IMG/VR virus record: IMGVR_UViG_3300020176_000013
Coordinates: 1 to 64,000 of that record
Origin: a virus
DNA length: 64,000 bases
Direction: 5' to 3' (one strand)
Both the position numbers and the translations under genes were made by a program. This document shows, piece by piece, positions 7,497-64,000 of this stretch. The notes beneath the pieces were generated by a model. That model made no database searches. It was not told the DNA's origin and saw nothing but the letters and a program-made list of their open reading frames with translations. Every line of letters begins with the position of its first letter. Positions within the stretch are counted from its first letter, which is position 1.

Positions 7497-7520
7497 GTTA
7501 CTAATATCAATATAATAATA
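7491..7520 (+). promoter_or_regulatory. Predicted middle promoter (AAC-N17-TATAAT), sliding clamp
   Basis: AACTAAGT at 7491 lies 20 nt before TATAATAATA at 7511; the gp45 ATG follows at 7537. It belongs to the AAC/TATAAA class found before eleven replication-type transcription units in this window. The same AACTAAGT string recurs at 13065 and 48948. Confidence 0.6.
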
Positions 7521-7536
7521 AACAAATTTTATTCTA

Positions 7537-11556: not shown

Positions 11557-11576
11557 TTTTTCTATATAATAATAAA
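11545..11576 (+). promoter_or_regulatory. Predicted middle promoter, uvsX
   Basis: AAC at 11545 (AACAAATC) lies 20 nt before TATAATAATA at 11565; the uvsX ATG is at 11589. The upstream element lies within the 3' end of the glycosyltransferase gene. It is the weakest match after AAC in the class. Confidence 0.5.
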
Positions 11577-11588
11577 ATAAAAACAAAT

Positions 11589-12785: not shown

Positions 12786-13065
12786 TACCGCCAAGCTTAA
12801 AGTAAAGCACGTATTAGGAAATCATACAACACTACCAAACTATCCAGATGCTGAGGATATTACCTATGAACTGATACGTGACTACTGTGGTAAAGTAGCA
12901 AAAGAGATTAAGTTCACTAACGTTTCTTTGCAAAAGAAGTATAGTCTTTCTGATGAAAAGACTAATGAGATTATTATGCAACTTAGGAGGGATAAAATTA
13001 TTGATGTATCCTTATCTAATTCTGCATATACTACTTATGAGGTTATACGAAACCCATACGAATAA
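12766..13065 (+). CDS. Small winged-helix-like protein of unknown function
   Basis: 99 aa, overlapping the uvsX 3' end by 20 nt in another frame, so coupled to it. The middle part VSLQKKYSLSDEKTNEIIMQL followed by RRDKIIDVSLSNSAYTTYEVI looks like the recognition helix and wing of a small winged-helix fold, but this is judged only from helix/strand pattern. It does not resemble UvsY or the gp59 helicase loader in any way I can recognise. Its place between UvsX and gp41 suggests a recombination or helicase-loading accessory. Confidence 0.6.
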   Translation: MLKKTLNTAKLKVKHVLGNHTTLPNYPDAEDITYELIRDYCGKVAKEIKFTNVSLQKKYSLSDEKTNEIIMQLRRDKIIDVSLSNSAYTTYEVIRNPYE

Positions 13066-13097
13066 ACTAAGTATAGTTTTTGCTATATAAAAATAAA
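13065..13097 (+). promoter_or_regulatory. Predicted middle promoter, gp41 helicase
   Basis: AACTAAGT at 13065 lies 21 nt before TATAAAAATAAA at 13086; ATG at 13103. The upstream element overlaps the stop codon region of the preceding gene. Confidence 0.6.
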
Positions 13098-13102
13098 TTA
13101 AG

Positions 13103-14386
13103 ATGAATTCTAGCACAGATCACGAAAAAATATTCTTTAACTATTTTCTAAAGAAGCCACATTACTTAAAGAGTACAGGCCCAGGATTTTTTAGTAATAG
13201 TGATTTAGATCATATAGCAAAATTATCTAAAAAGTTTTATACCGATTTTGGTGAAAGCCCATCAAGAGAGCAGATGAAGGCTCTCATTAAAGATGATCCT
13301 AATGAAATTCCAGAAAATATTGTATCAAGTATTTATGATATTAATATTAATGAATATGATCAAGATTGGCTAAAAAGAACGGGTGAAGCTTGGGTTAAGT
13401 GGAAACATTTTGATAAGCAATTAATTAAAACCATTGAATATGTAAAAACACAAGATGTTTCTCCAGAAAATGTAGAAGATGTTGTTACTCGTGCTATTGG
13501 TATGATTTCTACTGATGGGTCTTTAAACTTTGATACTGATATTGGATTAGACTTTTTTAATCCTGAGCACCACATACAAAGAACTTCAAAAAAGATCGAA
13601 ACTGGGTGGACGTTTGTAGATAATGTTTCGGGTGGCGGGTATGACACTAAATCTCTTATTGTATATGCCGGTGAACAGAATATTGGTAAATCTATTTGGT
13701 TAGCCAACGATGCTGCCAATTTTGTTAGAATGGGACATAATGTAGTATTCATTTCAGCTGAGATGTCTGCTCAAAAAGTACTTAAGAGAATTGGTTCTAA
13801 TCTTTTAGGTATTCCTATGCCACAGTATGATGAAAAGACCGGCAATAGAGATTTTATGAAACGTAAACTTGAAAGGATATCACGAGGGTTATTACCACCA
13901 GGTAAACTTTTTGTAAAAGAAATGCCAACATCACAGGGTACTGTTCTTGATATTGAAGCTTATCTCAAAGACTTAGAAGAAACTCAGGATCATAAAGTAA
14001 ATGTATTAGTTGTTGATTACATTAATATTCTTGCAAATTATAGAAATCCTAATACTGAAAATACTTATATGAAAATTAAACAAATTGCCGAAGATCTCCG
14101 GGCTCTTGCCGTTAAGAGAGATATGTTGGTAATTTCAGCAACGCAGATTAATCGTGGCGCGTGGGATGCAACTGAAGTAAGGATGGAAAACATTGCAGAA
14201 TCTGCAGGTCTTGCACATACTGCTGATGTCATGTATGCACTGATTCAAGATTCTATGATGCACGCAAATCGTGAGTATTGGTTAAAGGTACTTAAAATTA
14301 GAGACGGTCAAGGTAAGGGAACTCGATGTAGGTTCAATATTGATTATGAGCATATGAGATTAACTGAAACAGATGACATAAATTAA
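13103..14386 (+). CDS. 41: Replicative DNA helicase gp41 (DnaB-like)
   Basis: A 427-aa DnaB-family protein. The C-terminal RecA-like domain has Walker A GEQNIGKS at residues 190-197, NVVFISAEMSAQKVLKRIGS (helicase motif 1a), VNVLVVDYINILANY (Walker B) near 305 and VISATQINRGAWD (motif 3). The N-terminal 150 residues form the small hexamer collar domain. T4 gp41 has 475 aa. It unwinds DNA ahead of the fork and would load the primase, which is not in this window. It is followed by a 168-aa unknown gene and gp47/gp46. Confidence 0.93.
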   Translation: MNSSTDHEKIFFNYFLKKPHYLKSTGPGFFSNSDLDHIAKLSKKFYTDFGESPSREQMKALIKDDPNEIPENIVSSIYDININEYDQDWLKRTGEAWVKWKHFDKQLIKTIEYVKTQDVSPENVEDVVTRAIGMISTDGSLNFDTDIGLDFFNPEHHIQRTSKKIETGWTFVDNVSGGGYDTKSLIVYAGEQNIGKSIWLANDAANFVRMGHNVVFISAEMSAQKVLKRIGSNLLGIPMPQYDEKTGNRDFMKRKLERISRGLLPPGKLFVKEMPTSQGTVLDIEAYLKDLEETQDHKVNVLVVDYINILANYRNPNTENTYMKIKQIAEDLRALAVKRDMLVISATQINRGAWDATEVRMENIAESAGLAHTADVMYALIQDSMMHANREYWLKVLKIRDGQGKGTRCRFNIDYEHMRLTETDDIN

Positions 14387-20687: not shown

Positions 20688-20725
20688 AAAAGCCGGTAGT
20701 CAATAATAAACTATCGGCTTTTTTT
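20688..20725 (+). terminator. Intrinsic terminator before gp55
   Basis: AAAAGCCGGTAG (20688-20699), 11-nt loop, CTATCGGCTTTT, then a run of seven T to 20725. The stem has one G-T pair. The 3' arm carries AAC at 20709-20711, which is also the upstream element of the gp55 promoter. Confidence 0.85.
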
Positions 20726-20738
20726 GTATATAATAATA
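20709..20738 (+). promoter_or_regulatory. Predicted middle promoter, late sigma factor gp55
   Basis: AACTATCG at 20709 lies 20 nt before TATAATAATA at 20729; gp55 ATG at 20754. The upstream element is inside the terminator hairpin of the preceding gene, so readthrough and initiation may interfere. It groups with the clamp and uvsX promoters, which also have TATAATAATA. Confidence 0.55.
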
Positions 20739-20753
20739 AATAAAACACATGGG

Positions 20754-21119
20754 ATGGCTAGAAAAAGAAATTACCTAAATAATAGAGATCTGCTTGAAGA
20801 GATAAAAAAATCTAAAGAGCAAGATGAATTAACACCAAAGGCATTAGAATTCCTAATGCTATTAGCAGATAAATGTTCAAGAAAATTATCATATGCAAAT
20901 CCTGACGATAGGGATGATTGTATAGCTTATGCTTATATGGATCTTTACAGGTACTGGAGAAACTTTAATCCAGAGAAAAGTACTAATGCATTTGCATATT
21001 TTACTGAAATAGCAAAGAGAGGCTTTGCAAAGGGGTGGAATAAATTACATCCAAAGAAATATGCTGGAACTGTATCAATTAATGGAAGTGCAGACAGTGA
21101 CGGTATCTATACGATTTAA
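20754..21119 (+). CDS. 55: Late transcription sigma factor gp55
   Basis: A 121-aa sigma-region-2-like protein. The start is ATG 20754; an upstream TTG at 20724 falls inside the terminator/promoter and is rejected. NPDDRDDCIAYAYMDLYRYW (residues 49-68) and FNPEKSTNAFAYFTEIAKRG (71-90) match the conserved core of T4-like gp55. gp55 binds host RNA polymerase core and reads late promoters through the -10 element alone; here that should be the AATATATAA sites. It is short compared with T4 gp55 (185 aa), lacking C-terminal extensions. The next gene follows after 5 nt. Confidence 0.85.
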   Translation: MARKRNYLNNRDLLEEIKKSKEQDELTPKALEFLMLLADKCSRKLSYANPDDRDDCIAYAYMDLYRYWRNFNPEKSTNAFAYFTEIAKRGFAKGWNKLHPKKYAGTVSINGSADSDGIYTI

Positions 21120-21601: not shown

Positions 21602-22176
21602 TGGCAATAGTAGGATCATTTACTGAAGATTTGGATATTTACCTTGCAGAAAATAAAGGTCGTACTGGAGCATCTAAAGCATCTGCAAACGATTTATATA
21701 AAGTAGGTGTAAAAGATACTGGTGTTTTAGAAAACGGGAAAATGTATTGCTTTGAATATTTTACGCCTGACGAATTTTTCTATGATACTAACCCAATTGT
21801 TTTAGGACTAGGTAAAAGTATAGATAATCATCAGCTTGGGATAAATTTACATTATATTCCCTATGAAGCAAGAATACCATTTCTTACCGATGTAGTTAGA
21901 TCTTTTCAGAGTGTTATAGCTCAACAGCTAAAAGGTGCAACTGGGAATCCTAAATCACAAGGTAGTCTTAAAGAATTTACTTATGATAATTTAAAGTCTT
22001 CGTTGGCAAGAAAATACAATCTTACTTATGCAATAAGACAATACAGATTAGATAGAATCAGAAAACCTAAAGTATTAGGTTATGAAGATTGGTACATTGG
22101 TGCTGTTAATAACCAAAACAAATTTTTTGGAGGAAACATTAACGAGGCACAAGCATTATATTACAAGAATATATAA
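21601..22176 (+). CDS. Hypothetical T4-like structural protein
   Basis: 191 aa, no secure family name. It contains MYCFEYFTPDEFFYDTNPIV then GLGKSIDNHQLGINLHYIP, a Y-x-D-x-(N/F)P-x-x-L ... G-x-N-x-HY-(I/L)-P pattern that I recall in structural proteins of T4-like marine phages. In T4 the gene after gp4 is gp53 (baseplate wedge), but I see no convincing gp53 similarity. It ends in KNI-stop, and those last codons double as the late promoter of the portal gene. Confidence 0.65.
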   Translation: MAIVGSFTEDLDIYLAENKGRTGASKASANDLYKVGVKDTGVLENGKMYCFEYFTPDEFFYDTNPIVLGLGKSIDNHQLGINLHYIPYEARIPFLTDVVRSFQSVIAQQLKGATGNPKSQGSLKEFTYDNLKSSLARKYNLTYAIRQYRLDRIRKPKVLGYEDWYIGAVNNQNKFFGGNINEAQALYYKNI

Positions 22177-29999: not shown

Positions 30000-30031
30000 A
30001 ACCTTATCCTTTTTTTGCATATAAAAATAAA
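30000..30031 (+). promoter_or_regulatory. Predicted middle promoter, clamp loader gp44
   Basis: AACCTTAT at 30000 lies 20 nt before TATAAAAATAAA at 30020; ATG at 30045. Located in the divergent gap with the minus-strand gene. Confidence 0.6.
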
Positions 30032-30044
30032 TCTATCTTATTTT

Positions 30045-31007
30045 ATGAAAAATATGCAAAACATACTTTTGACTGAAAAGTACAGACCACAGTCTCTAGA
30101 TGATCTCATAACCCCAAAAAGAGTAGGCGATAAATTAAGTAAAGGTGTTTACCAACATTTATTATTACATGGTAGCCCAGGGACTGGCAAAACTTCAGCT
30201 GCTAAGGCATTAGTAAAACACTTTAAGCACCCTTATCTTTACATTAATGCATCAACTGATACCTCTGTTGATGTTGTTAGAAATAGAATTACAGACTTTT
30301 GTGCTAATCGTTCTATCATGGATGAACCTGGGAAAATGAAGGTTATTATTCTTGATGAGATTGATGGTGTGTCTGACCAATTCTTTAAAGCATTGAGAGC
30401 TACTATGGATCAATTTAATGTTAATGCAAGATTTATTGCAACATGTAATTACATTAACAAAGTACCTGATCCAATACAATCAAGATTTGAAATGATTGAT
30501 TTTGATTTTTCCAAAGAAGAAGAAACCGAAATAATGAAAAGCTACATTATGAGAGTTTTTCAAATCTGTAAAGAAGAAGGTATTGGAATAGATAAACATG
30601 CAGCGGTGGAGTTAGTAAAAAGAAAATTCCCTGATTTAAGAAATATGTTAAATCAGTTACAAGGTTTTAAATCACAAGGCTTAGAAACAATAACTGTTGA
30701 TGATATTAAGAAGTTTAGTTCGGTGTATAGAGATATTTATGATTTGGTAATAGATGGTGAAGATCCTGTTAAAAATTATCAATATATGCTATCTAATTAT
30801 GCCAATAGAACAGATGACGTACTTTCTTCATTAGGTGCTGAATTTATAGAATTTATAAAACAAGATAGACAATCATATATTCAATTTATACCACAAATAA
30901 TTGTAACAGTAGCAAAATACCAATCTCAACGTCAACTTGTAATTGATCCTGCTGTATCAATGCTTGCGTGTATATATGAATTACAAACAATAGTTAATGG
31001 AGCATGA
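30045..31007 (+). CDS. 44: Clamp loader large subunit gp44
   Basis: A 320-aa AAA+ ATPase. The start is ATG 30045 (MKNMQNILLTEKYRPQSLDD); a TTG at 30015 in frame lies within the promoter -10 region and is rejected. LLLHGSPGTGKTSAAKALV is Walker A, KVIILDEIDGVSDQFFKALR is Walker B, RATMDQFNVNARFIATCNY holds sensor 1 and PIQSRFEMIDF the SRF motif of clamp loaders. Length agrees with T4 gp44 (319 aa). It loads gp45 on DNA with gp62. The stop overlaps the start of a 54-aa gene. Confidence 0.93.
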   Translation: MKNMQNILLTEKYRPQSLDDLITPKRVGDKLSKGVYQHLLLHGSPGTGKTSAAKALVKHFKHPYLYINASTDTSVDVVRNRITDFCANRSIMDEPGKMKVIILDEIDGVSDQFFKALRATMDQFNVNARFIATCNYINKVPDPIQSRFEMIDFDFSKEEETEIMKSYIMRVFQICKEEGIGIDKHAAVELVKRKFPDLRNMLNQLQGFKSQGLETITVDDIKKFSSVYRDIYDLVIDGEDPVKNYQYMLSNYANRTDDVLSSLGAEFIEFIKQDRQSYIQFIPQIIVTVAKYQSQRQLVIDPAVSMLACIYELQTIVNGA

Positions 31008-32428: not shown

Positions 32429-33358
32429 ATGAAAATTTGCAAAATATTATGGTCAACCAACAGGTTAGAATATCTGATACCTACATTACAAACATCAGAT
32501 GAATTTATAGATTGGGGAGACCATGAAGTAGATGGTATATTTATTGATGATATGCCAACTGATAGAAATGATGAGACTATGAGGTTCTTAGCAGAATCTC
32601 ATGGTTATAATTACATAAGACTTCATGAAGAAAATAAAGGATTAACTAATACGTGGGAAGAGTCAATCGATATCTTATCTAATTTAGAAAAAGATTATGA
32701 TTTTATTTGGCACCAAGAAGATGATCTAATCATAAATAATTACATTAAGATAGATGATCTAATAAATTACTTAGATGAAAATAAATGGTGTTTACAGGTA
32801 GTTTTAGCTTATCAAGCTGAATGGTATTCGAAGCAGTCTGATCGTAAAATTAGTGAGTTACCTTTAACAAAGTGGAATAATTATCACATCATATCTAAAA
32901 ATCATTTTAATGATTGTACATTTGATACATCATTTTCATTAACCAGAGCCAAAGAATTTTTAGATGCAATTAAAATGTGGAAAGAAGATGCCATTCCTGA
33001 ACTAGTGGAACTTGCTGTTCATTCAGATTACATAAAAGAGCACGTATTTTGCGAGGGCGGTATATGGTACGTAATGAATGCATACAATAATATTATTAAT
33101 GATAAGTCAGAAAAAAATCATTGGGCAATTTCTTTTTATAGTGAAGATAAGAAAAATTTAGTTGAACATGTTGGTGAGTGGTCTTGGGGTCAAAGAGTAC
33201 CACCGTGGTTGGTTAAAGGTAAGATTGATGCTTTGGAAAAATCTCCAGATATTTGGGATGATGGTCATAAATACCAAGTTAGTAAAATGAAAGAAATGAT
33301 GGAAGACCCTAGTAAAAAAGTCTCGTCTCGTACTTGGGAAAGATTGGATGAATCATAA
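32429..33358 (+). CDS. Family 2-like (GT-A) glycosyltransferase
   Basis: 309 aa. The N-terminal KICKILWSTNRLEYLIPTLQ resembles the GT-A opening with TNR; GIFIDDMPTDRND and then FIWHQEDDLIINN near residue 92 supplies a DD metal-binding motif; the domain continues to CEGGIWYVMN. The C-terminal 70 residues are charged. It sits 3 nt after the 5'-nuclease gene, away from the glycan cluster at the start of the window. Another glycosyltransferase-like gene embedded among replication genes suggests it modifies a phage component such as DNA or capsid; acceptor unknown. Confidence 0.65.
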   Translation: MKICKILWSTNRLEYLIPTLQTSDEFIDWGDHEVDGIFIDDMPTDRNDETMRFLAESHGYNYIRLHEENKGLTNTWEESIDILSNLEKDYDFIWHQEDDLIINNYIKIDDLINYLDENKWCLQVVLAYQAEWYSKQSDRKISELPLTKWNNYHIISKNHFNDCTFDTSFSLTRAKEFLDAIKMWKEDAIPELVELAVHSDYIKEHVFCEGGIWYVMNAYNNIINDKSEKNHWAISFYSEDKKNLVEHVGEWSWGQRVPPWLVKGKIDALEKSPDIWDDGHKYQVSKMKEMMEDPSKKVSSRTWERLDES

Positions 33359-33390
33359 ACAAACTGCAAAGTTATTCATATAAATATAAA
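33358..33390 (+). promoter_or_regulatory. Predicted middle promoter, gp62 candidate
   Basis: AACAAACT at 33358 lies 21 nt before TATAAATATAAA at 33379; ATG at 33399. The upstream element starts at the stop codon of the glycosyltransferase gene. Confidence 0.5.
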
Positions 33391-33398
33391 ATAGGTTA

Positions 33399-43887: not shown

Positions 43888-44358
43888 ATGACTATATTTA
43901 AAGTAGAAAATCAAACAGATGGGAAGATTTATGTAGGCTACTCTGTTAATGATAATCCAAACAACTTAGGTACAGGAAAATACATTAAGAGGGCGGTAAA
44001 AGATTTTGGTTTAAGATCCTTTACTAAAACTACATTAGAAGAATTTGGACAAGATGAATCACTAGGTCATATTATGGATAGACTTGAATTTTGGATTAAA
44101 AAATTTAAAGCCGATAATCCTAAATATGGTTATAACGAAAGCGTCCAAGAAATGATCCCACAAAAGAAAAGACTTACAAAAAAATTACAAGTCTTATTAA
44201 CCCCAGAAGATGAAGATAATTTAAATTCTATCATTATCCAAAAATCAATGGAAACAAAAACAAAACCGATGCCCGTATCAAGATATGTTAGGCAATTAAT
44301 AGTAGAGCATATTGTAAAAGAGACATCACCAGAAAAACAATTAATAAAATCTAAATAA
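43888..44358 (+). CDS. GIY-YIG endonuclease-like protein with C-terminal DNA-binding part
   Basis: 156 aa. MTIFKVENQTDGKIYVGYSV corresponds to the GIY-YIG entry strand pair; the YVG half is intact but the first motif is IFK instead of GIY. GTGKYIKRAVKDFGLRSFTK, then RLEFWIKKF and YGYNESV match the rest of the domain including the catalytic Glu-like position. Residues 95-156 (QVLLTPEDEDNLNSIIIQKS, VSRYVRQLIVEHIVKE) look like a ribbon-helix-helix DNA-binding domain. Free-standing homing endonucleases of this type are common in T4-like phages. The altered first motif may mean reduced activity. It sits between gp19 and hub genes with its own promoter. Confidence 0.7.
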   Translation: MTIFKVENQTDGKIYVGYSVNDNPNNLGTGKYIKRAVKDFGLRSFTKTTLEEFGQDESLGHIMDRLEFWIKKFKADNPKYGYNESVQEMIPQKKRLTKKLQVLLTPEDEDNLNSIIIQKSMETKTKPMPVSRYVRQLIVEHIVKETSPEKQLIKSK

Positions 44359-48947: not shown

Positions 48948-48974
48948 AACTAAGTTAACCTGTTACTATATAAA
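48948..48974 (+). promoter_or_regulatory. Predicted middle promoter, exonuclease
   Basis: AACTAAGT at 48948 lies 21 nt before TATAAA at 48969; exonuclease ATG at 49009 (40-nt leader). Confidence 0.6.
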
Positions 48975-49008
48975 ATTAACAGATAGTTCAGAAAAAAGTA
49001 TAGTAATT

Positions 49009-49803
49009 ATGGATAAAAGTATTGTATGGTTTGATTTGGAAACCACAGGAGTAAACACAGCAAAGGATCGTATTATTGAGATTTGTATGATAAAGACCGA
49101 TCTTGATGGAAACGAAACCGATCGCTTTTATTCTCTTGTAAATCCCGGCACAAATGTTGAGTGGAGACAAGAGGCGATTGATAAACATGGCATCACACCA
49201 GACACACTTACGGATCAACCGATGTTTGAATATATTGCTAAAGAAGTTGTAGACTTTATAAGTGATTCTGACCTTGGTGGATATAATGCACTTTACTTTG
49301 ATATCCCAATGCTTACTGAAGAACTTATGAGAGCTGGTATTGTATTTAACCACCGTAACCGAGCTGTTATTGACCCTTTCCTTATTTACTCAAAGTATGA
49401 ACGGAGAGATCTTAGTACAGCTTATACAAAATACACAGGTAAGACTTTAGAAGACGCACACCGTGCAGAGAATGATATTCGCGCAACAATGGAAATCTTC
49501 CAGGCTCAACGCAAACTTTATGATATGCCACAAACAGTTGAAGAAATTGATAAAGTGGTTAATGAGTCTCGCCAGTCTCAAGTTGACCTAAGCGGTAAGT
49601 TTAAGTTTGCCGAGATTAACGGTAAGAAAGAAATTGTATTTAACTTTGGTAAGTGGAGCGGTAAACCTTTCCGTGAAGTATATGAAGCGGATTCTCGTTA
49701 CATTGAATGGATGATTGATAAAGGAGAGTTCTCAAAGGAAACCAAAATCATTGCTCGTAAACTTATGGAAAAGATGAAGGCGGAGACTGAAGCCCCATTT
49801 TAA
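49009..49803 (+). CDS. dexA: DnaQ-fold 3'-5' exonuclease (DexA-like)
   Basis: 264 aa. DEDDh motifs: VWFDLETTG (D9 and E11), GGYNALYFDIPMLTEELM (Exo II, D near residue 95) and EDAHRAENDIRATMEI (Exo III with the His/Asp pair) near 157. A C-terminal module KIVFNFGKWSGKPFREV plus YIEWMIDKGEF resembles the domain after the nuclease in ExoX-type proteins. It would degrade host or damaged DNA, or proofread in trans. The split polymerase in this window lacks its exonuclease domain, but that domain is expected in the missing half. Own promoter, middle class. Confidence 0.85.
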   Translation: MDKSIVWFDLETTGVNTAKDRIIEICMIKTDLDGNETDRFYSLVNPGTNVEWRQEAIDKHGITPDTLTDQPMFEYIAKEVVDFISDSDLGGYNALYFDIPMLTEELMRAGIVFNHRNRAVIDPFLIYSKYERRDLSTAYTKYTGKTLEDAHRAENDIRATMEIFQAQRKLYDMPQTVEEIDKVVNESRQSQVDLSGKFKFAEINGKKEIVFNFGKWSGKPFREVYEADSRYIEWMIDKGEFSKETKIIARKLMEKMKAETEAPF

Positions 49804-49846: not shown

Positions 49847-49871
49847 TTCCCAACAATTTGTATTATATTTA
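49847..49871 (+). promoter_or_regulatory. Predicted early promoter, copy 1
   Basis: TTCCCAA (49847-49853) then TTTGTATTATATTTA with TATATTTA at 49864. It shares TTCCCAA, the same 17-nt offset and a 14-nt identical core TTTGTATTATATTT with the element at 59759. It precedes a cluster of small genes. Confidence 0.55.
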
Positions 49872-52450: not shown

Positions 52451-52631
52451 TTGGAATTGGGTAACAAAGGTAATAATGCATAAAGAAAATACTTATGCAC
52501 ATTACCTAGCACTTAAGAAACTTATAAAACTTTTTGAACTTAAATGGTCAGGCCATAAGAATAAAGTAGCATATGACTTATATGTTAACTATCTTAAGGC
52601 AAGACTTAAGTTAGAATTTAGAAGGGATTAA
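52440..52631 (+). CDS. Small basic hypothetical protein
   Basis: 63 aa. MRDDWNWVTKVIMHKENTYA, then a Lys-rich helix (HYLALKKLIKLFELKWSGHK) and YDLYVNYLKARLKLEFRRD. Helical, basic and aromatic. The start ATG 52440 lies in the second copy of the 20-bp repeat. A middle promoter begins at its stop codon. Confidence 0.55.
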   Translation: MRDDWNWVTKVIMHKENTYAHYLALKKLIKLFELKWSGHKNKVAYDLYVNYLKARLKLEFRRD

Positions 52632-52663
52632 ACCTTTCCTAAAATTAGCAATATAAAAATAAA
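52631..52663 (+). promoter_or_regulatory. Predicted middle promoter, topoisomerase operon
   Basis: AACCTTTC at 52631 lies 21 nt before TATAAAAATAAA at 52652; ATG at 52667. Confidence 0.6.
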
Positions 52664-52666
52664 AGT

Positions 52667-54544
52667 ATGGCCGTAAGCATAGAAAAGAAATATCAAAAAC
52701 TTACTGACACAGAACATGTACTCCTAAGACCTGGTATGTACATCGGTTCTGTGAAGCCTCATACTGAAGAAGTTTATCTTTTAGATAGAAGAAGTTGGAA
52801 ACTTATACCTAAGGAAATTACCTATAATCCTGGATTCTTAAAACTCTTTGATGAGATTGTTTCCAATTCAGTAGATGAACATAAAAGAAATCCTAAACTT
52901 AATCAAGTAAAGGTTAACATTGACGTTGATACAAATAAAATATCAATCTGGGATAATGGTGGAATTCCTGTAGAGATTCATAAAGAGTATGATGAATGGG
53001 TTCCTGAAATGATCTTTAGTAACCTTAAGACGGGAAGTAATTTTGATGACACTGAGGAAAGAACTGTTGTAGGTACCAATGGTGTAGGTAGTACTCTTAC
53101 CAATATTTTTAGTACTGAGTTTACAATTGATACTTGTGATGGAAAGAAAAGGTTTACACAAACCTTCTTTAATAACATGGCAAAGAAAACCAAACCTGCA
53201 ATTAAAGCACAAAAGAAAGGCTTTACTGAAATCTCTTATATAGCAGACTTTAAACGGTTTGGTATGAAGAAGATTGATAAGCCTTCTATTCAGATGATTG
53301 AAAAAAGGCTTTATGATATTGCTGCATGTAATCCTAAGCTTAAGATCTGGCTCAACGGTGATCCTATTACATTTAAGTCATTTAAGGAATACTCTGAACT
53401 TTACACAACGCCTGTGTTTTATGAGCAGTCAGAAAATTGGCAAATAGGTATAGGACATTCTACCTCAGGGTTTAAAGCTATCTCATTTGTAAATTCTGTT
53501 GAAACAAAGGATGGTGGAAAACATGTAGATAATATTACATGGCAGATTACACAATTCCTTAGAGATAAGATTAAGAGAAAACATAGAGTTGATGTAAAGC
53601 CGTCTGAGTTAAAAAATCATTTGTACCTTTTCATTAATTGTACAATCATTAATCCTGCATTCTCATCGCAAACTAAAGAAAAGCTTATTACCGAACCTAA
53701 AGACTTCGGAAGTATTCATGTACTTTCGGATAAGACACTAAGGCAAGTTCTTAACTCTGAAATTATTCAATCAGTATTAGATTGGATTAAACAAAAGAAA
53801 GCAGCAGAGGAAAGATCCAAACTTAGAAAACTAAATAAAGGTTTAGATAAAAAGAAGGTAGTAAAACTTATTGATGCCAAGAAGCGAGGTGATAGGAATA
53901 ACTGTACTCTTGCAATATTTGAGGGTGATTCTGCATCTTCTGCATTTAGGCAATATCGTAATCCACAAACACAAGGGGCATTTCCTTTAAGAGGTAAATT
54001 TGTAAATGTAAGAGAATCTGTACCATCTAAAGTTGTACAGAACAAAGAAGTACAATCTCTTATGGCTGCGCTAGGCCTTAAGATAGGCCATGAACCTAAA
54101 GACTTAAGGTACGGTAAAATACTTTTGTATACTGATGCTGATGTTGATGGTAATTCAATTTCGGCTCTGCTTATCAATTTCTTAGGTAAGTATTGGCCAG
54201 AGTTATTTGATGAAGGTAGGGTACTTAAAGTAGAAACACCTCTCATGGTTGCTAAGAAAGGAAAACAAACCTTAAGTTTTTATTCTGATGAGGAATATAA
54301 AAAATGGGAGTCTAAACAAAGGTCTCTTAATTCATGGAACATTGAATATAAGAAAGGGCTTGCTGCATTGGAAAATGAAGAGTATCAAGAAATCATAAGT
54401 AATCCTAAAACCTTTACTTTGGTTAAAGATAACGATTTTGAAAATACATTGAATACATGGTTCTCTAAAGACTCAGAACCAAGAAAGAAAAAGATCTTAG
54501 GTGAGAAATTAGAATATGCACCTAATGGAAATTCATTATTTTAA
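52667..54544 (+). CDS. 39: DNA topoisomerase II large subunit (gp39/gp60 fused)
   Basis: 625 aa. GHKL ATPase motifs: DEIVSNSVDEHKR near residue 64, SIWDNGGIPVEIH near 93, TGSNFDD and TNGVGSTLTNIFS near 145. TOPRIM domain: LAIFEGDSASSAFR (Glu) near 420 and YTDADVDGNSISALL (DxD) near 490. It corresponds to T4 gp39 plus gp60 in a single chain. Removes torsional stress and supports replication origin use, with gp52 encoded 3 nt downstream. Confidence 0.95.
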   Translation: MAVSIEKKYQKLTDTEHVLLRPGMYIGSVKPHTEEVYLLDRRSWKLIPKEITYNPGFLKLFDEIVSNSVDEHKRNPKLNQVKVNIDVDTNKISIWDNGGIPVEIHKEYDEWVPEMIFSNLKTGSNFDDTEERTVVGTNGVGSTLTNIFSTEFTIDTCDGKKRFTQTFFNNMAKKTKPAIKAQKKGFTEISYIADFKRFGMKKIDKPSIQMIEKRLYDIAACNPKLKIWLNGDPITFKSFKEYSELYTTPVFYEQSENWQIGIGHSTSGFKAISFVNSVETKDGGKHVDNITWQITQFLRDKIKRKHRVDVKPSELKNHLYLFINCTIINPAFSSQTKEKLITEPKDFGSIHVLSDKTLRQVLNSEIIQSVLDWIKQKKAAEERSKLRKLNKGLDKKKVVKLIDAKKRGDRNNCTLAIFEGDSASSAFRQYRNPQTQGAFPLRGKFVNVRESVPSKVVQNKEVQSLMAALGLKIGHEPKDLRYGKILLYTDADVDGNSISALLINFLGKYWPELFDEGRVLKVETPLMVAKKGKQTLSFYSDEEYKKWESKQRSLNSWNIEYKKGLAALENEEYQEIISNPKTFTLVKDNDFENTLNTWFSKDSEPRKKKILGEKLEYAPNGNSLF

Positions 54545-54547
54545 ATT

Positions 54548-55891
54548 ATGAGTAGAAGAACAGTAACAGATTTTTTTGATAAGGAGTATTTGGAATATGC
54601 CAAGTATGTTGTAGAGAATCGTGCAATTCCTAGTTGCATAGATGGTCTTAAACCTACCCAAAGAAAGGTTGTACATATTGCAAATAAGATTTGGAAAAGT
54701 GGAAAGGAAAAGCCTATGAAACTTTTTCAACTTGCAGGTCGTGTAGCAGCCGAAGCATACTATCATCATGGTAACACATCTTTGGAATCTGCTATGGTTG
54801 GTATGGCTCAAGGATTTAAGAACTCATTACCTCTCCTAGAAGGCATCGGTCAATTTGGATCATTAAGATCTCCTTCTGCTGGTGCACCTCGCTACATCAG
54901 TGGAAAACTTCATCCAAACTTTAGACTTCTCTATAAGGATTTTGAATTATTGGAAAACAAAATTGAAGAAGGCGAAAAAATTGAACCTGAGTTTTTCTTG
55001 CCTATTATCCCAACGGTAATTCTAAATGGATCTTCTGGTATTGCGGTAGGTTTTGCTACAAACATTCTTAACCGAAATCCTAAGGATGTGGTTAATGCAT
55101 GCATCTCTACACTTAAAGGTAAAAAGATGCCATCACTACCACCTTGGTTAAATGAGTTTTCCGGCACTTTTACTAGAGATACAGTTAATCCTAAAACCTG
55201 GAAAATAAGTGGTGTATATGAGGTGCTAAACACTACAACAGTTAAGATAACTGAAATTCCTCCTGGATTTACTTATGAAAGATATGAAGAGCATTTAAAT
55301 AACCTTACTGAAAAAAGAATCATTTCAGGTTATGAAGATAATTCATCAGGTAAAGTTGAGTATGTACTTAAGTTTCAACGGGCAGTATTAAAAGATTACA
55401 TAAGCAGAAATAAATTAGAGGCACTCTTAAAGATAAATACTCAAGAAACCGAAAACCTTACAACGATTGATGAAAACGGTGAACTTAAGATTTTCAATAA
55501 AGTAGAGGAAATCGTTAAACACTTCGTAGAAGTTAGGTTAACTTGGTATGATAAGAGAAAGGCATATTTACTTACTAAGATTGAAAAGGAACTCTTAATA
55601 ATCAGTAATAAGGCTAGGTTCATTAAAGATATTATTGACGGTAAGCTTAAGGTAAATAATGTACCTAAGAAAACTATTGTACTTTATTTGGAAACTGCAA
55701 ATTATGATGAAGTAGATGGATCATATAACTATCTTTTAAATATGCCTATCTATTCATTAACCAAAGAAAGATTTAATGAACTTCTAAAACAAGAAGCAGA
55801 TAAGAAAAAGGAAAGGGAAGTTATTGAAGGCACCGATCCTAAGGATATGTATCTCTCCGATTTAGAAGCATTAAAGAAAGCAATTAAGTAA
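54548..55891 (+). CDS. 52: DNA topoisomerase II medium subunit gp52
   Basis: 447 aa (T4 gp52 is 442). DFFDKEYLEYAKYVVENRAI, IDGLKPTQRKVVHIANKIW, AYYHHGNTSLESAMVGMAQ and SPSAGAPRYISGKL with the catalytic Tyr at residue 116 preceded by Arg, as in GyrA-type cleavage subunits. The C-terminal half is a coiled coil and a charged end. It pairs with gp39. Followed by a middle promoter starting at its stop codon. Confidence 0.95.
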   Translation: MSRRTVTDFFDKEYLEYAKYVVENRAIPSCIDGLKPTQRKVVHIANKIWKSGKEKPMKLFQLAGRVAAEAYYHHGNTSLESAMVGMAQGFKNSLPLLEGIGQFGSLRSPSAGAPRYISGKLHPNFRLLYKDFELLENKIEEGEKIEPEFFLPIIPTVILNGSSGIAVGFATNILNRNPKDVVNACISTLKGKKMPSLPPWLNEFSGTFTRDTVNPKTWKISGVYEVLNTTTVKITEIPPGFTYERYEEHLNNLTEKRIISGYEDNSSGKVEYVLKFQRAVLKDYISRNKLEALLKINTQETENLTTIDENGELKIFNKVEEIVKHFVEVRLTWYDKRKAYLLTKIEKELLIISNKARFIKDIIDGKLKVNNVPKKTIVLYLETANYDEVDGSYNYLLNMPIYSLTKERFNELLKQEADKKKEREVIEGTDPKDMYLSDLEALKKAIK

Positions 55892-55922
55892 ACCTTTTAA
55901 CAAAAAGCAATATAAAAATAAA
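55891..55922 (+). promoter_or_regulatory. Predicted middle promoter
   Basis: AACCTTTT at 55891 lies 20 nt before TATAAAAATAAA at 55911; ATG at 55930. Nearly identical in layout to the topoisomerase promoter at 52631. Confidence 0.6.
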
Positions 55923-55929
55923 CACTATT

Positions 55930-56607: not shown

Positions 56608-57079
56608 AGTAATTTTAGTTGGCAAGGCAGCTGCAGGTAAAGATCATATGAGAAAGATTTTATGTGGTCGTGGTTTTGAGTATGGTATATCTTATACTAC
56701 AAGACCTCCTAGAGAAGGTGAAATTGATGGCAAAGATTACTTCTTTCTTAGCGAAGTTGAATTTAAGAAAAAGATTAAGGATGATTATTGGTATGAATGG
56801 ATAGAATTCAACGGTTGGTATTATGGTACAAGCCATAGACAGTTTACGCATTCATGTAACCTATTCATAATGACACCTAAAGGTATAAGTCATATTGATC
56901 CAGTGGACCGTAAAGAATGTACTATCATATATCTTAACATTCCTCAAGAAGTTCGAAGAAAGCGATTAGAAGAAAGGGCTATGCCAGGCGATTCAATAGA
57001 CCGTAGAATGAAAGCAGATAAAATTGACTTTAAAGATTTTACTGACTTTGATATTGAAATAAACAATTCCAACTTTTAA
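56600..57079 (+). CDS. Guanylate kinase-like protein
   Basis: 159 aa. P-loop LVGKAAAGKDHMRKIL at residues 6-21, then SYTTRPPREGEIDGKDYFFL (residues about 31-50), the GMP-binding motif of guanylate kinases, and YEWIEFNGWYYGTSH. ERAMPGDSIDRRMKAD forms the lid. It would phosphorylate (d)GMP to (d)GDP for DNA synthesis. Shorter than bacterial Gmk (about 207 aa), but all core parts are present. It lies beside a second nucleoside monophosphate kinase and the ThyA-family gene. Confidence 0.8.
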   Translation: MNKVILVGKAAAGKDHMRKILCGRGFEYGISYTTRPPREGEIDGKDYFFLSEVEFKKKIKDDYWYEWIEFNGWYYGTSHRQFTHSCNLFIMTPKGISHIDPVDRKECTIIYLNIPQEVRRKRLEERAMPGDSIDRRMKADKIDFKDFTDFDIEINNSNF

Positions 57080-57092
57080 CATATAAAAATAA
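57061..57092 (+). promoter_or_regulatory. Predicted middle promoter, dNMP kinase/ThyA-family operon
   Basis: AACAATTC at 57061 lies 20 nt before TATAAAAATAAA at 57081; ATG at 57094, so the transcript would be nearly leaderless. Confidence 0.55.
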
Positions 57093-57093
57093 A

Positions 57094-57687
57094 ATGAGTA
57101 AATTCATTATTATTGAGGGTACTGATAACACAGGTAAAGACACTCAACAAAATCTTATCATTGAAAAATTACATAACTTAGTTTTTCATAAACTTCATTA
57201 CTCTTCATTACCATTTAAAGATAATGTAGAAAAACATGTTAAGTATTCAACTAAAATGTATGATGACATGTTTAAAATGATGATGAATAATAAAGAAGAT
57301 GGTATTAATATGATTTTTAACCGATCTCATTTAGGTGAATCGGTTTATTCTCCGCTTTACAGAAATTACTCAGGTGATTACATATTTGATATTGAAAAGA
57401 AATATGTAGATAAGTTAAGAAAGGAATTATATCTTATTACATTAACAAATGATCCACATACAATCTTAAAGAGAGATGATGGTAAATCATTCTATGGTAA
57501 TGAAGAAGAGGTTAAGGCTGAAATTGACGGTTTTAACCGAGCTCATAGGTTAAGTAGGATTAAGAATAAATTGCTTATCAACATTGGTACAATGAGTGCT
57601 GATGAGGTTTCTCATATCATTGTAGATTTTCTTATGCATGAAAACTCTGTTATGGGTACTGCTGAACAACTAAATTTATTTGCATAA
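57094..57687 (+). CDS. Thymidylate kinase-like dNMP kinase
   Basis: 197 aa. P-loop FIIIEGTDNTGKDTQQ at residues 4-19, NRSHLGESVYSPLYR near 77 (DRY/H-like motif) and an ERxx-poor lid LKRDDGKSFYGNEEEV. Family: thymidylate/deoxynucleoside monophosphate kinase, with GTDNTGKDT rather than the usual GxDGxGKST. It may phosphorylate modified dNMPs such as the product of the ThyA-like enzyme; this is inference. Overlaps the next gene by one base. Confidence 0.75.
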   Translation: MSKFIIIEGTDNTGKDTQQNLIIEKLHNLVFHKLHYSSLPFKDNVEKHVKYSTKMYDDMFKMMMNNKEDGINMIFNRSHLGESVYSPLYRNYSGDYIFDIEKKYVDKLRKELYLITLTNDPHTILKRDDGKSFYGNEEEVKAEIDGFNRAHRLSRIKNKLLINIGTMSADEVSHIIVDFLMHENSVMGTAEQLNLFA

Positions 57688-57872
57688 TGGGACACTATGA
57701 AGACTTTTTCTGGGAAATAACCGAGGAATTAAAACGGTTAGGATTAAAGAAGGAGTTTGAACAAGAGATAAGAAAGATTCAATCCAATGATGAATTTAAG
57801 TATAAATCCATAAAAGAAAGATGGGAGTATGCTTTAAACAAAGTTAAACAATTACATAAAATTAATAAATGA
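57687..57872 (+). CDS. Small hypothetical protein
   Basis: 61 aa, helical: MGHYEDFFWEITEELKRLGL and EFKYKSIKERWEYALNKVKQ. It overlaps the previous gene by one base and the ThyA-family gene by 4 nt, so it is translationally linked to both; function unknown. Confidence 0.6.
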   Translation: MGHYEDFFWEITEELKRLGLKKEFEQEIRKIQSNDEFKYKSIKERWEYALNKVKQLHKINK

Positions 57873-58777
57873 GAATATTTAAAGGAGAGACGTTTGCTGA
57901 GGCGTATCATTCAGCATTAAGTAGTGTTATCTATAATCCTAATTACGTATCCTCACCAAGAGGTATGAAGATATTTGAAATGTCAGATGCTGCAATTGTA
58001 GTAGAAGATCCTTCATATTGTCTTTATGAAAATGATCGTAGGAGTAGTCAATTTAAATACATCGCAGCAGAATTGGTTTGGTATTTCACAGGTCGTAATG
58101 ATGCTGACTTTATTACTCCTTATGCAAAATTCTGGGATCAAATTAAAAATAAAGATGGTTCAGTTAATTCTGCATACGGAAATCTTATCTTTACTGAAGA
58201 GTTAGAAGATGGCAGAAATCAATATCGTTGGGCATTAGATTCTTTAATCCAAGATAAAGACTCAAGACAGGCAATTTTACATTTTAATAAACCATCACAT
58301 CAATGGAACGGTAATAAAGATTTTGTTTGTACTCTTAACGGTATATTCCAAATAAGAGATAATAAACTTAACTTTACTGTAGATATGAGATCTAATGATC
58401 TTGTCTTAGGTACTCCTACTGATGTTGCATTCTTTTGTTTGTTACAAATGCAAATGCTAGAGCATCTACGAAAGTATTATCCTGAGTTAGAGTTAGGTAC
58501 ATATACTCATATTGCCCATTCGCTTCACTTATATGAAAGACACTTTGATCTTGTAAGCGAAATGTTAATGAAATCATTTAATCCTCAGTCATATCCAGAA
58601 ATGAGAGAGTTTTTAATTGATCCTAACGGTAAGCCATTAGATGGTCTGAAACAATTAGAAGATGAAATGATTCAAAGCAATGATGTAGTGCTCCAAGGTG
58701 ATTCTAAATTTGAACCTCAACCACATGATGATCTTTTACACCAATGGATATCTGATGCAATCTTTAGGAATATATAA
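57869..58777 (+). CDS. ThyA-family enzyme, predicted dCMP-specific (hydroxymethylase/methylase type)
   Basis: 302 aa. Landmarks: AAELVWYFTG (Glu68, like Glu58 of E. coli ThyA), SRQAIL (Arg133), catalytic Cys154 in KDFVCTLNGIF, MRSNDLVLGTPTD with Arg174, Asp177 and Asp185, then HIAHSLHLYERH. Cys154 to residue 185 is 31 residues, the same spacing as Cys146-Asn177 in E. coli ThyA. In ThyA this residue is Asn and chooses dUMP; in dCMP hydroxymethylases such as T4 gp42 it is Asp. Here it is Asp, predicting dCMP as substrate and hence a modified cytosine. The cofactor product (hydroxymethyl or methyl) cannot be read. The last codons AAT ATA TAA form the next gene's late promoter. Confidence 0.8.
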   Translation: MRIFKGETFAEAYHSALSSVIYNPNYVSSPRGMKIFEMSDAAIVVEDPSYCLYENDRRSSQFKYIAAELVWYFTGRNDADFITPYAKFWDQIKNKDGSVNSAYGNLIFTEELEDGRNQYRWALDSLIQDKDSRQAILHFNKPSHQWNGNKDFVCTLNGIFQIRDNKLNFTVDMRSNDLVLGTPTDVAFFCLLQMQMLEHLRKYYPELELGTYTHIAHSLHLYERHFDLVSEMLMKSFNPQSYPEMREFLIDPNGKPLDGLKQLEDEMIQSNDVVLQGDSKFEPQPHDDLLHQWISDAIFRNI

Positions 58778-59733: not shown

Positions 59734-59758
59734 AAAAAGGTTCATTAATAATTTTCAG

Positions 59759-59783
59759 TTCCCAATTTTTTGTATTATATTTG
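59759..59783 (+). promoter_or_regulatory. Predicted early promoter, copy 2
   Basis: TTCCCAA (59759-59765), TTTGTATTATATTTG with TATATTTG (59776-59783), which fits the Bacteroidetes -7 consensus TAnnTTTG. It precedes the phosphoesterase and ECF sigma factor genes. Confidence 0.6.
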
Positions 59784-59816
59784 TACTGTAACAGTCAAAT
59801 CTGTAACTAATTTTTT

Positions 59817-60359
59817 ATGCTTAAAGATTTAGAAACTCCAAAAGATTTTTTTATAACATCCGATACGTGGTTTGGAAGACCACAGATTTTACAAATAGCT
59901 AATCGTTTATCATTTAAAGATATAGATGATATGAATGATAAGTTAATAAAGAATTGGAATAAGACAGTTAAAAAGAATGATCTTGTATTTCATTTAGGAA
60001 ATTTTGCATGGGATCCCAATACTGCTAGAAATGTTTTAGAAAAATTAAATGGACAAATTTATTTTATCCTAGGTAATACTGATGATGCTATTTTAGATGT
60101 TCATCTTGAGTTTAAAAATGTATCATTACTTGAAGATCAGATCTTAGAATTACCTCAATACGATTCAATCATTTGCCATTACCCATTAGAGGTTTGGAAT
60201 GGTAAAGATTCAGGGACTATTCATTTTCATGGTCATACTGTGTTTTCTCATAAGACAGATTTAACCAAAATGAATAGGGTAAATGTATGTACAGATTTTT
60301 GGAACTACACCCCTGTTAAATATTCAACTATTAAAGATTTTATAAATGACAAAAACTAA
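59817..60359 (+). CDS. Calcineurin-like phosphoesterase, catalytic motifs degenerate
   Basis: 180 aa with the fold order of metallophosphoesterases but altered metal ligands: FITSDTWFG (DxH is D16-x-W18), HLGNFAW (GD is GN62), FILGNTDDA (GNH is GNT88), and HFHGHTVF (GHxH is GHTV). At least four ligands are lost; CHYPLEVW keeps a His. It is therefore probably a pseudoenzyme that binds rather than cleaves. It overlaps the ECF sigma factor gene by 14 nt and shares its early promoter. Confidence 0.75.
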   Translation: MLKDLETPKDFFITSDTWFGRPQILQIANRLSFKDIDDMNDKLIKNWNKTVKKNDLVFHLGNFAWDPNTARNVLEKLNGQIYFILGNTDDAILDVHLEFKNVSLLEDQILELPQYDSIICHYPLEVWNGKDSGTIHFHGHTVFSHKTDLTKMNRVNVCTDFWNYTPVKYSTIKDFINDKN

Positions 60360-60978
60360 AAAGACCTACAAAGAATTGGCAATTGAATTTAAGAACACAA
60401 AATCAGAAAAATCTTACAATGAACTTTATAAGAAGATGAGACCAGGTTTATGGTCTTATGTTAATAATATCGTAAAAGATCCTACTATTGCTGACGATAT
60501 AGTTTCTACTACATTAACTACAGTTTATCTTAAAATTGACCAATACAATGAAGATTATCAAATCACTACGTGGGCATATCGTATTGCCTATAATGAATGT
60601 ATCGGTTGGATAAGATTTAGAAATAAAAAGGTAAGTATGAATGTATTTACCGATGCAGGTGTGGAGCCTCCTATGAATGAGTCATTTACAACAATTGATG
60701 GAATTTTACCTAAAACAGAAAATGACTGGGAAGAAGAAGACAATTTATTAGATGAGAAAGTTCGTTTAACATATGAAGCAATAAATGCATTGCCTCCAAT
60801 GTATAAGAGATATATGGTTGAAAGATTTCTTAATCATAAATCTTATTCTGATATTTTAGAAATAATGTTAGAGTTTGAAAAAGACATAAATCTTCAAACT
60901 GTAAAGAACAGAATATTCAGAGGAAGAAAAATAGTTAAAAAACAGCTCGAAGGGATGAAACTATTTTCTGAAATCTAA
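60346..60978 (+). CDS. ECF-type sigma factor
   Basis: 210 aa. Region 2 at residues 30-93: SYVNNIVKDPTIADDIVSTT, YLKIDQYNEDYQITTWAYRI and AYNECIGWIRF. Region 4 at 145-203: INALPPMYKRYMVERFLNHK, a degenerate SYSDILEIM and NLQTVKNRIFRGRKIVKKQL (recognition helix pattern). A 50-residue acidic linker lies between them. The two-domain layout without region 3 is ECF-like. Overlap by 14 nt with the phosphoesterase indicates coupled expression from the early promoter at 59759. ECF factors typically read AAC-containing -35 elements, which is exactly what the eleven middle promoters of this phage have; the link is inference. Confidence 0.85.
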   Translation: MTKTKKTYKELAIEFKNTKSEKSYNELYKKMRPGLWSYVNNIVKDPTIADDIVSTTLTTVYLKIDQYNEDYQITTWAYRIAYNECIGWIRFRNKKVSMNVFTDAGVEPPMNESFTTIDGILPKTENDWEEEDNLLDEKVRLTYEAINALPPMYKRYMVERFLNHKSYSDILEIMLEFEKDINLQTVKNRIFRGRKIVKKQLEGMKLFSEI

Positions 60979-60999: not shown

Positions 61000-61452
61000 A
61001 TGTACGCAAAAAAACTATTTAAAGAACTTAACATCTGGCGAAAAATAAGAAGCATTGCTAAATCTGAGGAAAATGCATTAAATGAAAAAGGCTTTAGGGT
61101 GGATTGGATAGGTAGAATTTATACCGTAATTAATCTACCAGAAGAAGTTGCAACTGCACCAATTTCGCAAGAAGGTTATGTTTTAATGGAATTAAGAAAA
61201 CATGATCAATTTTTATTGCAATTAGGTATAGCTGATTATGTATCACCTGAATTTAGTAGAATTGATGGAACTGACTCATTCTTATTAGTATTATCACCAG
61301 ACCGAGAATACTTTAGGTTGTGGCCATTGATTAAATCTCTACTTAGAACTGGCGGTATTATTTTAGCTATAAGACTTATGTATGTAATTTTTGAACATAA
61401 CCAAGAAAAAATCACTGAACTATGGAACAAACTGATGACTCTAGTATTTTAA
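61000..61452 (+). CDS. Hypothetical protein with one C-terminal TM segment
   Basis: 150 aa. Residues 1-100 soluble and strand-rich (WIGRIYTVINLPEEVATAPI, FLLVLSPDREYFRLWPLIKS), then TGGIILAIRLMYVIFEHNQ near 118-136 as a hydrophobic segment. Located 21 nt after the ECF sigma gene. It overlaps the next gene by 31 nt. Possibly a membrane-anchored or virion protein; no family recognised. Confidence 0.6.
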   Translation: MYAKKLFKELNIWRKIRSIAKSEENALNEKGFRVDWIGRIYTVINLPEEVATAPISQEGYVLMELRKHDQFLLQLGIADYVSPEFSRIDGTDSFLLVLSPDREYFRLWPLIKSLLRTGGIILAIRLMYVIFEHNQEKITELWNKLMTLVF

Positions 61453-63011: not shown

Positions 63012-64000
63012 GTGGCTGGTAGAGTACCTATAATTCCAGGAGTCCCAACTCCAAGCGATCCACAATGTGCATTAACTTATTGTGGAAGAATTATCGCACA
63101 AGTAGATTGTATTAAATGGATAGTACAAGGTACTTCTGCATGCATTGATATTCAATTATTTAATGCTAATGATAAACCACTTAATCTTGATACTATATGT
63201 GATATACACGTTCAACTAACAAATGAGTTAGAATGTGTTGTTGCAAATTTTTGGTATCCTGATGTTCCTTCTGGGTCAAAGGGATTCCTTATAGACATCT
63301 TACAATATACTGATACCTCGGGTACAATTTATAATGAAGGTTTAATTAGAATCTGCCTACCTTCCAGCTGTACATATGTTTCACCTGGAAATATAATGGC
63401 TGAAATACTTCTAACTGAATGTGGAGGAAATACTGGAGATCCAACTGGCGTAGGTCCTACTGGTGCATTACCAACCGGATCCGCTGAAATTTATGGAATT
63501 CCATGTTTATGGGTTGCTACGATTGTTGAATCTAAGATTGCACAAAATGGTGGTGATAGTGGATGTTATCCAGGCTATGTACCCGGTGGAGGTGGATCTG
63601 GTGGTGGAGGTGGATCTGTTTCAGGTTCTGTTGGTGCAACCGGTCAACAAGGTCCACAAGGCCCACGAGGATTTATTGGGGCCACTGGTATAGGTGGAAG
63701 CGGCGGAGGAAATGATGGTGCAACTGGTGTTCAGGGACCACAGGGACCACAGGGACCAATCGGTGCGACTGGTTTAACTGGTCTACAAGGTGCAACTGGA
63801 GCTGATGGTGTAGGTTCTACTGGAGCTACTGGTCTGCAAGGTCCAATTGGTGCAACTGGAGCTGATGGGGTAGGTTCTACTGGAGCTACTGGTCCGCAAG
63901 GAGAAATTGGTGCCACTGGTGTTCAGGGTCCAATTGGTGCAACTGGAGCTGATGGTGTAGGTTCTACTGGAGCTACTGGTGTTCAAGGACCACAAGGTGA
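63012..64000 (+). CDS. Collagen-like virion fibre protein, 3' partial
   Basis: A GTG at 63012 (the frame has a stop at 63009-63011) opens a reading frame that runs off the window end. Residues 1-200 are a Cys-containing globular part ([20 protein letters not shown]). After a Gly/Ser linker ([11 protein letters not shown] type) follow G-x-y repeats such as [20 protein letters not shown], a collagen-like triple helix as in phage tail and head fibres. The repeat [12 protein letters not shown] recurs. It is probably an adhesin or tail fibre and would trimerise. The end is outside the window. Confidence 0.75.
63789..63980 (+). repeat. 45-bp repeats encoding collagen-like units
   Basis: Three near-identical 45-bp units at 63789-63833, 63849-63893 and 63936-63980, each reading [15 protein letters not shown]. 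Spacing is 60 and 87 bp. Such repeats expand and contract easily. Confidence 0.8.

Follow-up and report, generated by a model that had tools for sequence, protein, structure and literature searches.

In bacteriophage T4, middle transcription retains the host sigma70, which is remodelled by AsiA, with MotA bound to an upstream box. Phage SPO1 relies on a sigma cascade in which gp28 is followed by gp33/34. In phiEco32 and 7-11, an early phase run by the host sigma factor comes first, and middle and late promoters are then served by a phage-encoded sigma factor resembling the extracytoplasmic function (ECF) type (PMC4331800; PMC7881722). A survey of jumbo phages reports sigma factors in every member of group 2 (T4-like), some of them near cellular RpoD (Iyer et al. 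2021, PMC7824862). Here we describe the sigma factors and promoters of a T4-like virus, IMG/VR record IMGVR_UViG_3300020176_000013, from the first 64,000 of its 70,836 bases (the window). Comparison of this record with its relatives makes it likely that an ECF-type sigma factor encoded at 60346-60978 directs the host RNA polymerase to the phage middle promoters, in a relay that would pass from the host sigma factor to the ECF sigma factor and then to the late sigma factor gp55, without MotA or AsiA.

The ECF-type sigma factor gene and its early promoter

The sigma factor is encoded by the second gene of a two-gene unit, since the preceding phosphoesterase gene overlaps its start by 14 bases.

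59752 to 59788, plus strand: predicted early promoter, of host type, for the phosphoesterase and sigma genes (block TTTTCAGTTCCCAATTTTTTGTATTATATTTGTACTG from 59752, -7 element TATATTTG at 59776-59783)
59817 to 60359, plus strand: phosphoesterase gene, which opens the sigma operon (phrog_547, 1.2e-33)
60346 to 60978, plus strand: ECF-type sigma factor of 210 amino acids, an open reading frame (ORF) with an ATG start

This is a genuine ECF-type sigma gene, confirmed by the presence of both region 2 and region 4. The Pfam models Sigma70_r2 (residues 27-93, 1.3e-10) and Sigma70_r4_2 (residues 143-195, 1.1e-6) match above their curated cut-offs, and the two regions are separated by 49 residues, a linker of less than 50 being typical of ECF sigma factors, with no further domain. 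The NCBIfam model TIGR02937 (sigma70-ECF) exceeds its cut-off of 42.9 with a score of 54.8 bits, the PHROG label is "RNA polymerase sigma factor," and a PDB profile search retrieved sigma factors exclusively, with SigW at the top (8e-12). An AlphaFold model (predicted local distance difference test score 76, linker poorly placed) has ECF sigma factors as all of its top 20 PDB fold matches. Region 4 of the model superimposes on region 4 of Escherichia coli sigmaE in its complex with -35 DNA (2h27) with a root mean square deviation (RMSD) of 1.9 Å, and region 2 on 4lup with an RMSD of 2.6. The gene has 36 close relatives in IMG/VR (61-91% identity), with conservation far above chance, and its recognition helix INLQTVKNRIFRGR is unchanged across 18 relatives. 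A scan of GTDB genomes for a cellular origin or host retrieved just partial matches at 27-39% identity, in Balneolaceae metagenome-assembled genomes and Sphingobacterium, and no host is called from them for that reason.

The phosphoesterase accompanies the sigma gene over long distances. All 26 distant sigma loci (approximately 44% identical) have a homologue upstream of sigma, either adjoining it or separated from it by a few genes, and in the huge phage LR756500 the homologue directly adjoins the sigma gene. The block TTTTCAGTTCCCAA..TTATATTTGTACTG upstream of the operon is kept in most of 19 aligned loci. Its -7 element TATATTTG fits TAHHTTTG, the primary-sigma element of Flavobacterium and other Bacteroidota (PMC6847099), which would point to a Bacteroidota host. 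A de novo motif search also recovered an early motif, TCAG..TTATATTT, and the window contains a second element of this type that shares CCCAA..TTTGTATTATATTT with the block at 59752.

49863 to 49871, plus strand: second early-type -7 element TTATATTTA, upstream of the gene at 49889

The original prediction had been made from the DNA letters and their ORFs. Its two-domain ECF-like sigma factor is borne out by the Pfam, NCBIfam, PHROG, PDB profile and fold comparisons alike, and the early-type promoter that it placed at 59759 falls within the conserved block that starts at 59752.

Two further hallmarks, each of just a subset of ECF sigma factors, are a co-transcribed anti-sigma factor and positive autoregulation. 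Family searches found no co-transcribed anti-sigma factor, the neighbors of the sigma gene being the phosphoesterase and a 150-amino-acid protein without family matches. The latter gene (61000-61452), with a likely membrane helix, is conserved 3' of the sigma gene in its clade. No site of the middle promoter class described below precedes the sigma gene in the record or seven relatives, and such a site lies within 900 bp upstream of the operon in just 6 of 76 related loci, so that the arrangement is not one of positive autoregulation.

A middle promoter class with an AAC element

Upstream regions of called genes in the record and seven relatives, with start codons taken from a simple ORF caller, were searched for bipartite words and compared with dinucleotide shuffles. 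The word AAC-N16-ATATAA stood out de novo, and expectation maximization (EM) gave the consensus TTAAAC(T/C/A)-N-ATATAAWAATAAA, that is, TTAAAC-N16/17-ATATAAWAATAAA. From the start of AAC to the start of ATATAA the distance is 19 or 20 nucleotides (nt) in 101 of 102 EM sites, whereas the distance to the start codon varies from 13 to 77 nt; a translation signal is ruled out, as AAC keeps a set distance from the TATA box but not from the start codon. A position weight matrix (PWM) scan above 17 bits retrieved 126 sites, 115 of them upstream of a gene on the same strand, and none in second-order Markov shuffles. The record has 12 sites, of which 11 are within the window, and in the record alone the motif is significant (z of 7.8 against a shuffled maximum of 3.9). 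Shuffles thus rule out a chance origin, although the sites of the eight genomes are not independent, given the relatedness of these genomes, and PWM counts in this training set are partly circular.

The -10 box is close to the start codon (median 22 nt, minimum 13, for example, at the sites with -10 boxes at 57081 and 57856), and leaders would therefore be very short or absent. AAC in the -35 box is a stated hallmark of ECF promoters, and the -35 box of Bacillus subtilis SigW is ATTGAAACCTTT (PMC8103513). Sites in the window include TTAAACCTTT and TAAACCTTT forms.

The predicted middle-class promoters of the window are as follows.

7491 to 7522, plus strand: before the gene at 7537, for a 249-amino-acid protein (AAC at 7491, ATATAA at 7510; 27.7 bits)
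11545 to 11577, plus strand: before the uvsX-like recombinase gene, 11589-12785 (27.7 bits; phrog_97, 2.6e-59)
13065 to 13098, plus strand: before the DnaB-like helicase gene, 13103-14386 (24.6 bits; phrog_19, 2.9e-62)
20709 to 20741, plus strand: before gp55 (AAC at 20709; 25.7 bits)
30000 to 30032, plus strand: before the clamp loader gene, 30045-31007 (29.2 bits; phrog_168, 4.4e-71)
33358 to 33391, plus strand: before the gene at 33399, function unassigned (22.9 bits)
48948 to 48981, plus strand: before the DNA polymerase-type exonuclease gene, 49009-49803 (20.5 bits; phrog_192, 1.1e-47)
52631 to 52664, plus strand: before the topoisomerase II large subunit gene, 52667-54544 (27.1 bits; phrog_543, 2.8e-194)
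55891 to 55923, plus strand: before the small gene at 55930 (27.0 bits)
57062 to 57094, plus strand: before the thymidylate kinase gene, 57094-57687 (25.1 bits; phrog_761, 3.7e-16)
57837 to 57869, plus strand: weak site (ATAAAA) before the thymidylate synthase gene, 57869-58777 (17.6 bits; phrog_160, 1.5e-40)

Sites are retained before orthologous genes in relatives. The uvsX site has orthologous counterparts in 5 other genomes and the exonuclease site in 6, the gp55 site is matched in G001, G005, G007, and G011, and across the sigma clade nearly every topoisomerase locus keeps its site, with a spacer that varies in sequence. At the thymidylate kinase gene, ATATAA stands 13 nt before the ATG, which predicts a leaderless or nearly leaderless message. 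The DNA evidence as a whole strongly suggests that the phage sigma factor switches on replication genes and gp55.

The product of the gene at 7537 has no PHROG, Pfam, or PDB match; its identification as a sliding clamp was dropped on that account and for its low-confidence model. The DNA polymerase is apparently split, with 8343-9461 corresponding to the C-terminal family B part alone (PF00136 at 138-387) and 49009-49803 to a homologue of the exonuclease subunit.

gp55 and the late promoter class

20754 to 21119, plus strand: gp55-type late sigma factor, 121 amino acids from the ATG at 20754 (region 2 match alone; phrog_234 late sigma, 1.2e-14)
22167 to 22176, plus strand: late-class box GAATATATAA, upstream of the portal gene at 22195
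Further late-class boxes: 18678, 23862 (head protease), 27591, 34991, 37244, 43200 (tail tube), 43854, and 58768

The product of 20754-21119 also matches gp55 of T4-like phages by tblastn. The late class consists of a -10-only box, AATATATAA, with no upstream element, and stands before the portal, head protease, tail tube, and other genes. The AAC class is not found in front of the virion genes of the window. Among annotated targets, non-virion genes make up 8/8 for the middle class versus 1/4 for the late class (Fisher p of 0.018). A gp55-type protein and -10-only boxes before virion genes are both present as predicted features, in agreement with late transcription of the T4 type.

Since (A)TATATAA-like boxes occur in both classes, gp55 might read both of them, with the AAC box merely tuning strength or timing. 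Such a dual role is very unlikely: gp55 is here a protein of 121 amino acids with a region 2 match only, T4 late promoters lack an upstream element (PMC2988020), no upstream region of the record contains both the AAC class and the late box, and gp55 is itself behind an AAC promoter. Separate sigma factors for the two classes, the ECF type for the middle and gp55 for the late one, are the preferred reading.

At gp55, a terminator and a promoter overlap: a terminator-like hairpin, AGCCGGTAGTC...AACTATCGGCTTTTTTT (20690-20730), contains the AAC box of the promoter in its downstream arm. Relatives look similar. A GIY-YIG homing-endonuclease-like gene (43888-44358) is found behind a late-class box.

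Distribution of the AAC class and of the sigma family

Given the partial circularity of the PWM counts, weight is placed on three clades or phages outside the motif training set. In sigma relatives at 42-47% identity (26 nonredundant loci), AAC-N17-TATA is present in 76 upstream regions versus 7.4 expected, and spacings other than N17 are near background. The T4-like phage LR756500 (462 kb), whose gp55 is 57% and whose terminase is 50% identical, has the same operon with a sigma factor 36% identical, and its AAC-to-TATA class counts 37 sites versus 9 expected. In Flavobacterium phage MaF61, a very diverged sigma-like protein, ORF93, is encoded next to thymidylate synthase and guanylate kinase genes. 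There, TGCAAC-N16-CATT occurs 25 times versus 0.4 expected, its -10 beginning at the same 19 nt from AAC, and sites precede genes annotated as thymidylate synthase, guanylate kinase, dihydrofolate reductase, ligase, and clamp, among others. Judged by these comparisons, the AAC class travels with the sigma family, with AAC and spacing kept and the -10 changed in MaF61. The class was not found in 50-kb stretches of T4 and RM378, and Tenacibaculum phages PTm1 and pT24 have neither a sigma region 2 match nor a convincing AAC motif over shuffles.

Bacteria commonly have ECF sigma factors, which typically read AAC (PMC8103513), and a host ECF sigma factor could therefore read these promoters while the phage protein reprograms host genes. 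This arrangement is highly improbable, because the class follows the phage sigma factor, including the altered -10 in MaF61, and is absent from the two Tenacibaculum phages.

Several observations weigh against assigning the AAC class to the phage ECF sigma factor. Sphingomonas phage PAU has strong AAC-N14-TAGTA promoters, with dozens of ACTGAACTTTC-N-GTAGTATAAT before genes, and a profile search covering 160 kb of it found no member of the phage ECF sigma family. AAC-N16-AGTATAA promoters likewise occur in a more distant T4-like lineage (G013/G014/G021), in which no ECF sigma factor was found in the approximately 97 kb covered by contigs of a genome that is not closed. Because of PAU and this lineage, AAC promoters are not proof of a phage ECF sigma factor everywhere. 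In addition, the AAC motif is not significant in G010 by itself, the source record is a 70.8-kb fragment, and the -10 is ATATAA here and CATT in MaF61 rather than the CGT of ECF promoters, a hallmark that derives from a small studied subset and is not universal (PMC8103513).

In PAU, a 362-amino-acid sigma70-like protein was ruled out by profile as a member of the phage ECF sigma family; together with the AAC promoters, it possibly forms a parallel system. The topoisomerase-60% lineage (G013, G014, G015, G021, G022, and G025) was rejected as a sigma-free control because it has its own AAC-N16-AGTATAA class and its genome is not closed. In these genomes, the strand with the replication genes carries most of the TAGAACTTTTT-N-AGTATAA promoters, and many genes of the other strand, that of the virion genes, are preceded by GATAAATAA boxes.

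The AAC promoters of PAU and the G021 lineage, with no ECF-family sigma factor detected, would also suit a MotA-like activator that binds the AAC box together with the host sigma factor, the ECF sigma factor serving another, smaller promoter set. In T4 middle promoters, too, a TATA-like -10 is accompanied by an upstream box. Models for MotA (PF09114) and AsiA (PF09010) were run on 13 records, some of which may be fragments, and matched nothing at E≤1; the MotA negative is weak, as MotA-like proteins could diverge past the Pfam model. The gp33 model PF16805 did not match in these records either, also a weak negative because gp33 is small, poorly conserved, and variable. Against such an activator, AAC is a stated hallmark of ECF -35 boxes (PMC8103513), and the AAC-TATA spacing is fixed to 1 nt, as expected of a sigma factor. 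The class also recurs with the sigma factor at 36-47% identity and in MaF61 at fixed register, and PTm1 and pT24, which lack the sigma factor, lack the class as well. A MotA-like activator is thus unlikely, and recognition by the ECF sigma factor is preferred.

Proposed relay and its implications

In the proposed relay, the host RNA polymerase, carrying its own primary sigma factor, would read the TATATTTG promoter at 59752 and transcribe the phosphoesterase and sigma genes, presumably early. From co-occurrence and ECF rules, we infer that the sigma factor with core polymerase then reads TTAAAC-N16/17-ATATAAWAATAAA, region 4 binding AAC and region 2 the TATAA box. AAC-class transcription would yield the replication, recombination, and nucleotide genes and gp55, and gp55, by analogy with T4, would recognize the late promoters of virion genes, which consist of the -10 box AATATATAA alone. 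Neither MotA nor AsiA would be needed. With gp55 under the middle class, the relay predicts its own order.

This sequence of events had been outlined in the original prediction, whose AAC sites at 7491, 13065, and 52631 prove exact to the base and whose placement of gp55 behind an AAC promoter holds (AAC at 20709, ORF at 20754-21119). The cascade from host sigma to ECF sigma, to replication genes and gp55, and on to late genes is well supported by comparison, with timing and recognition as its inferred parts. The proposal of a different solution from MotA agrees with the search for MotA, AsiA, and gp33 that it called for, within the limits given above for MotA and gp33.

The relay bears on middle transcription without MotA or AsiA in T4-like phages outside the enterobacterial group, and in this widespread environmental group three putative promoter classes and two phage sigma factors are readable from sequence. 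MaF61 is cultivated on Flavobacterium sp. B330 (PMC13269007), which makes the relay directly testable. The sigma-promoter pairs would be a ready set for the study of sigma specificity evolution and possible expression tools for Bacteroidota. More speculatively, and less probably than not, the relay may be the general middle-transcription route of Bacteroidota T4-like phages, freshwater, marine, and huge, in which ECF sigma factors and promoters coevolve (AAC kept, -10 and neighboring bases changed), with MotA/AsiA as a derived enterobacterial special case. Four proteins of LR756500 other than gp55 match sigma region 2 above the cut-off, as do two of Lak-B5 (MK250024). Huge phages may use multi-sigma relays.

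Elsewhere in the window, 63012-64000 (to 64658 in the record) encodes a long collagen-like protein with GATGxxG repeats.

Comparison with known systems

The T4 MotA/AsiA system acts at the same step, before gp55 drives late transcription, and its targets, replication and nucleotide genes, are similar; here, a new sigma factor is encoded instead, and no MotA, AsiA, or gp33 model matches. SPO1 also uses sequential sigma factors, from the host to a phage middle and a phage late factor, but it is not T4-like and its late sigma factor is not gp55.

In phiEco32, 7-11, and Kuravirus, an ECF-like phage sigma factor redirects the host polymerase after an early host-sigma phase. Unlike the virus described here, these are enterobacterial podoviruses in which that factor serves middle and late genes, is itself also expressed from phage promoters, and is accompanied by a phage anti-sigma factor, whereas the present sigma factor would serve the middle class only, would leave the late class to gp55, and is mostly not behind its own class. 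A tblastn search with the sigma factor among 50,697 phage records (E≤1e-3) retrieved no phiEco32 record, and the kinship remains at the ECF level.

The jumbo-phage survey likewise describes T4-like phages with extra sigma factors; it names minimal and RpoD-like types without mention of ECF and, in the passages considered, assigns them no promoter class or temporal role (PMC7824862). Among cellular proteins, B. subtilis SigW is the best solved-structure relative (8e-12) and has the best NCBIfam score, and its -35 box ATTGAAACCTTT resembles TTAAACCTTT, but the -10 here is TATAA and not CGT. Literature searches, mostly of papers available without subscription, found no description of a T4-like phage whose ECF sigma factor has a middle promoter class to itself. 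A sigma relay as such is known from phiEco32, 7-11, and SPO1; what is new is the T4-like setting and the predicted placement of gp55 under an ECF sigma factor.
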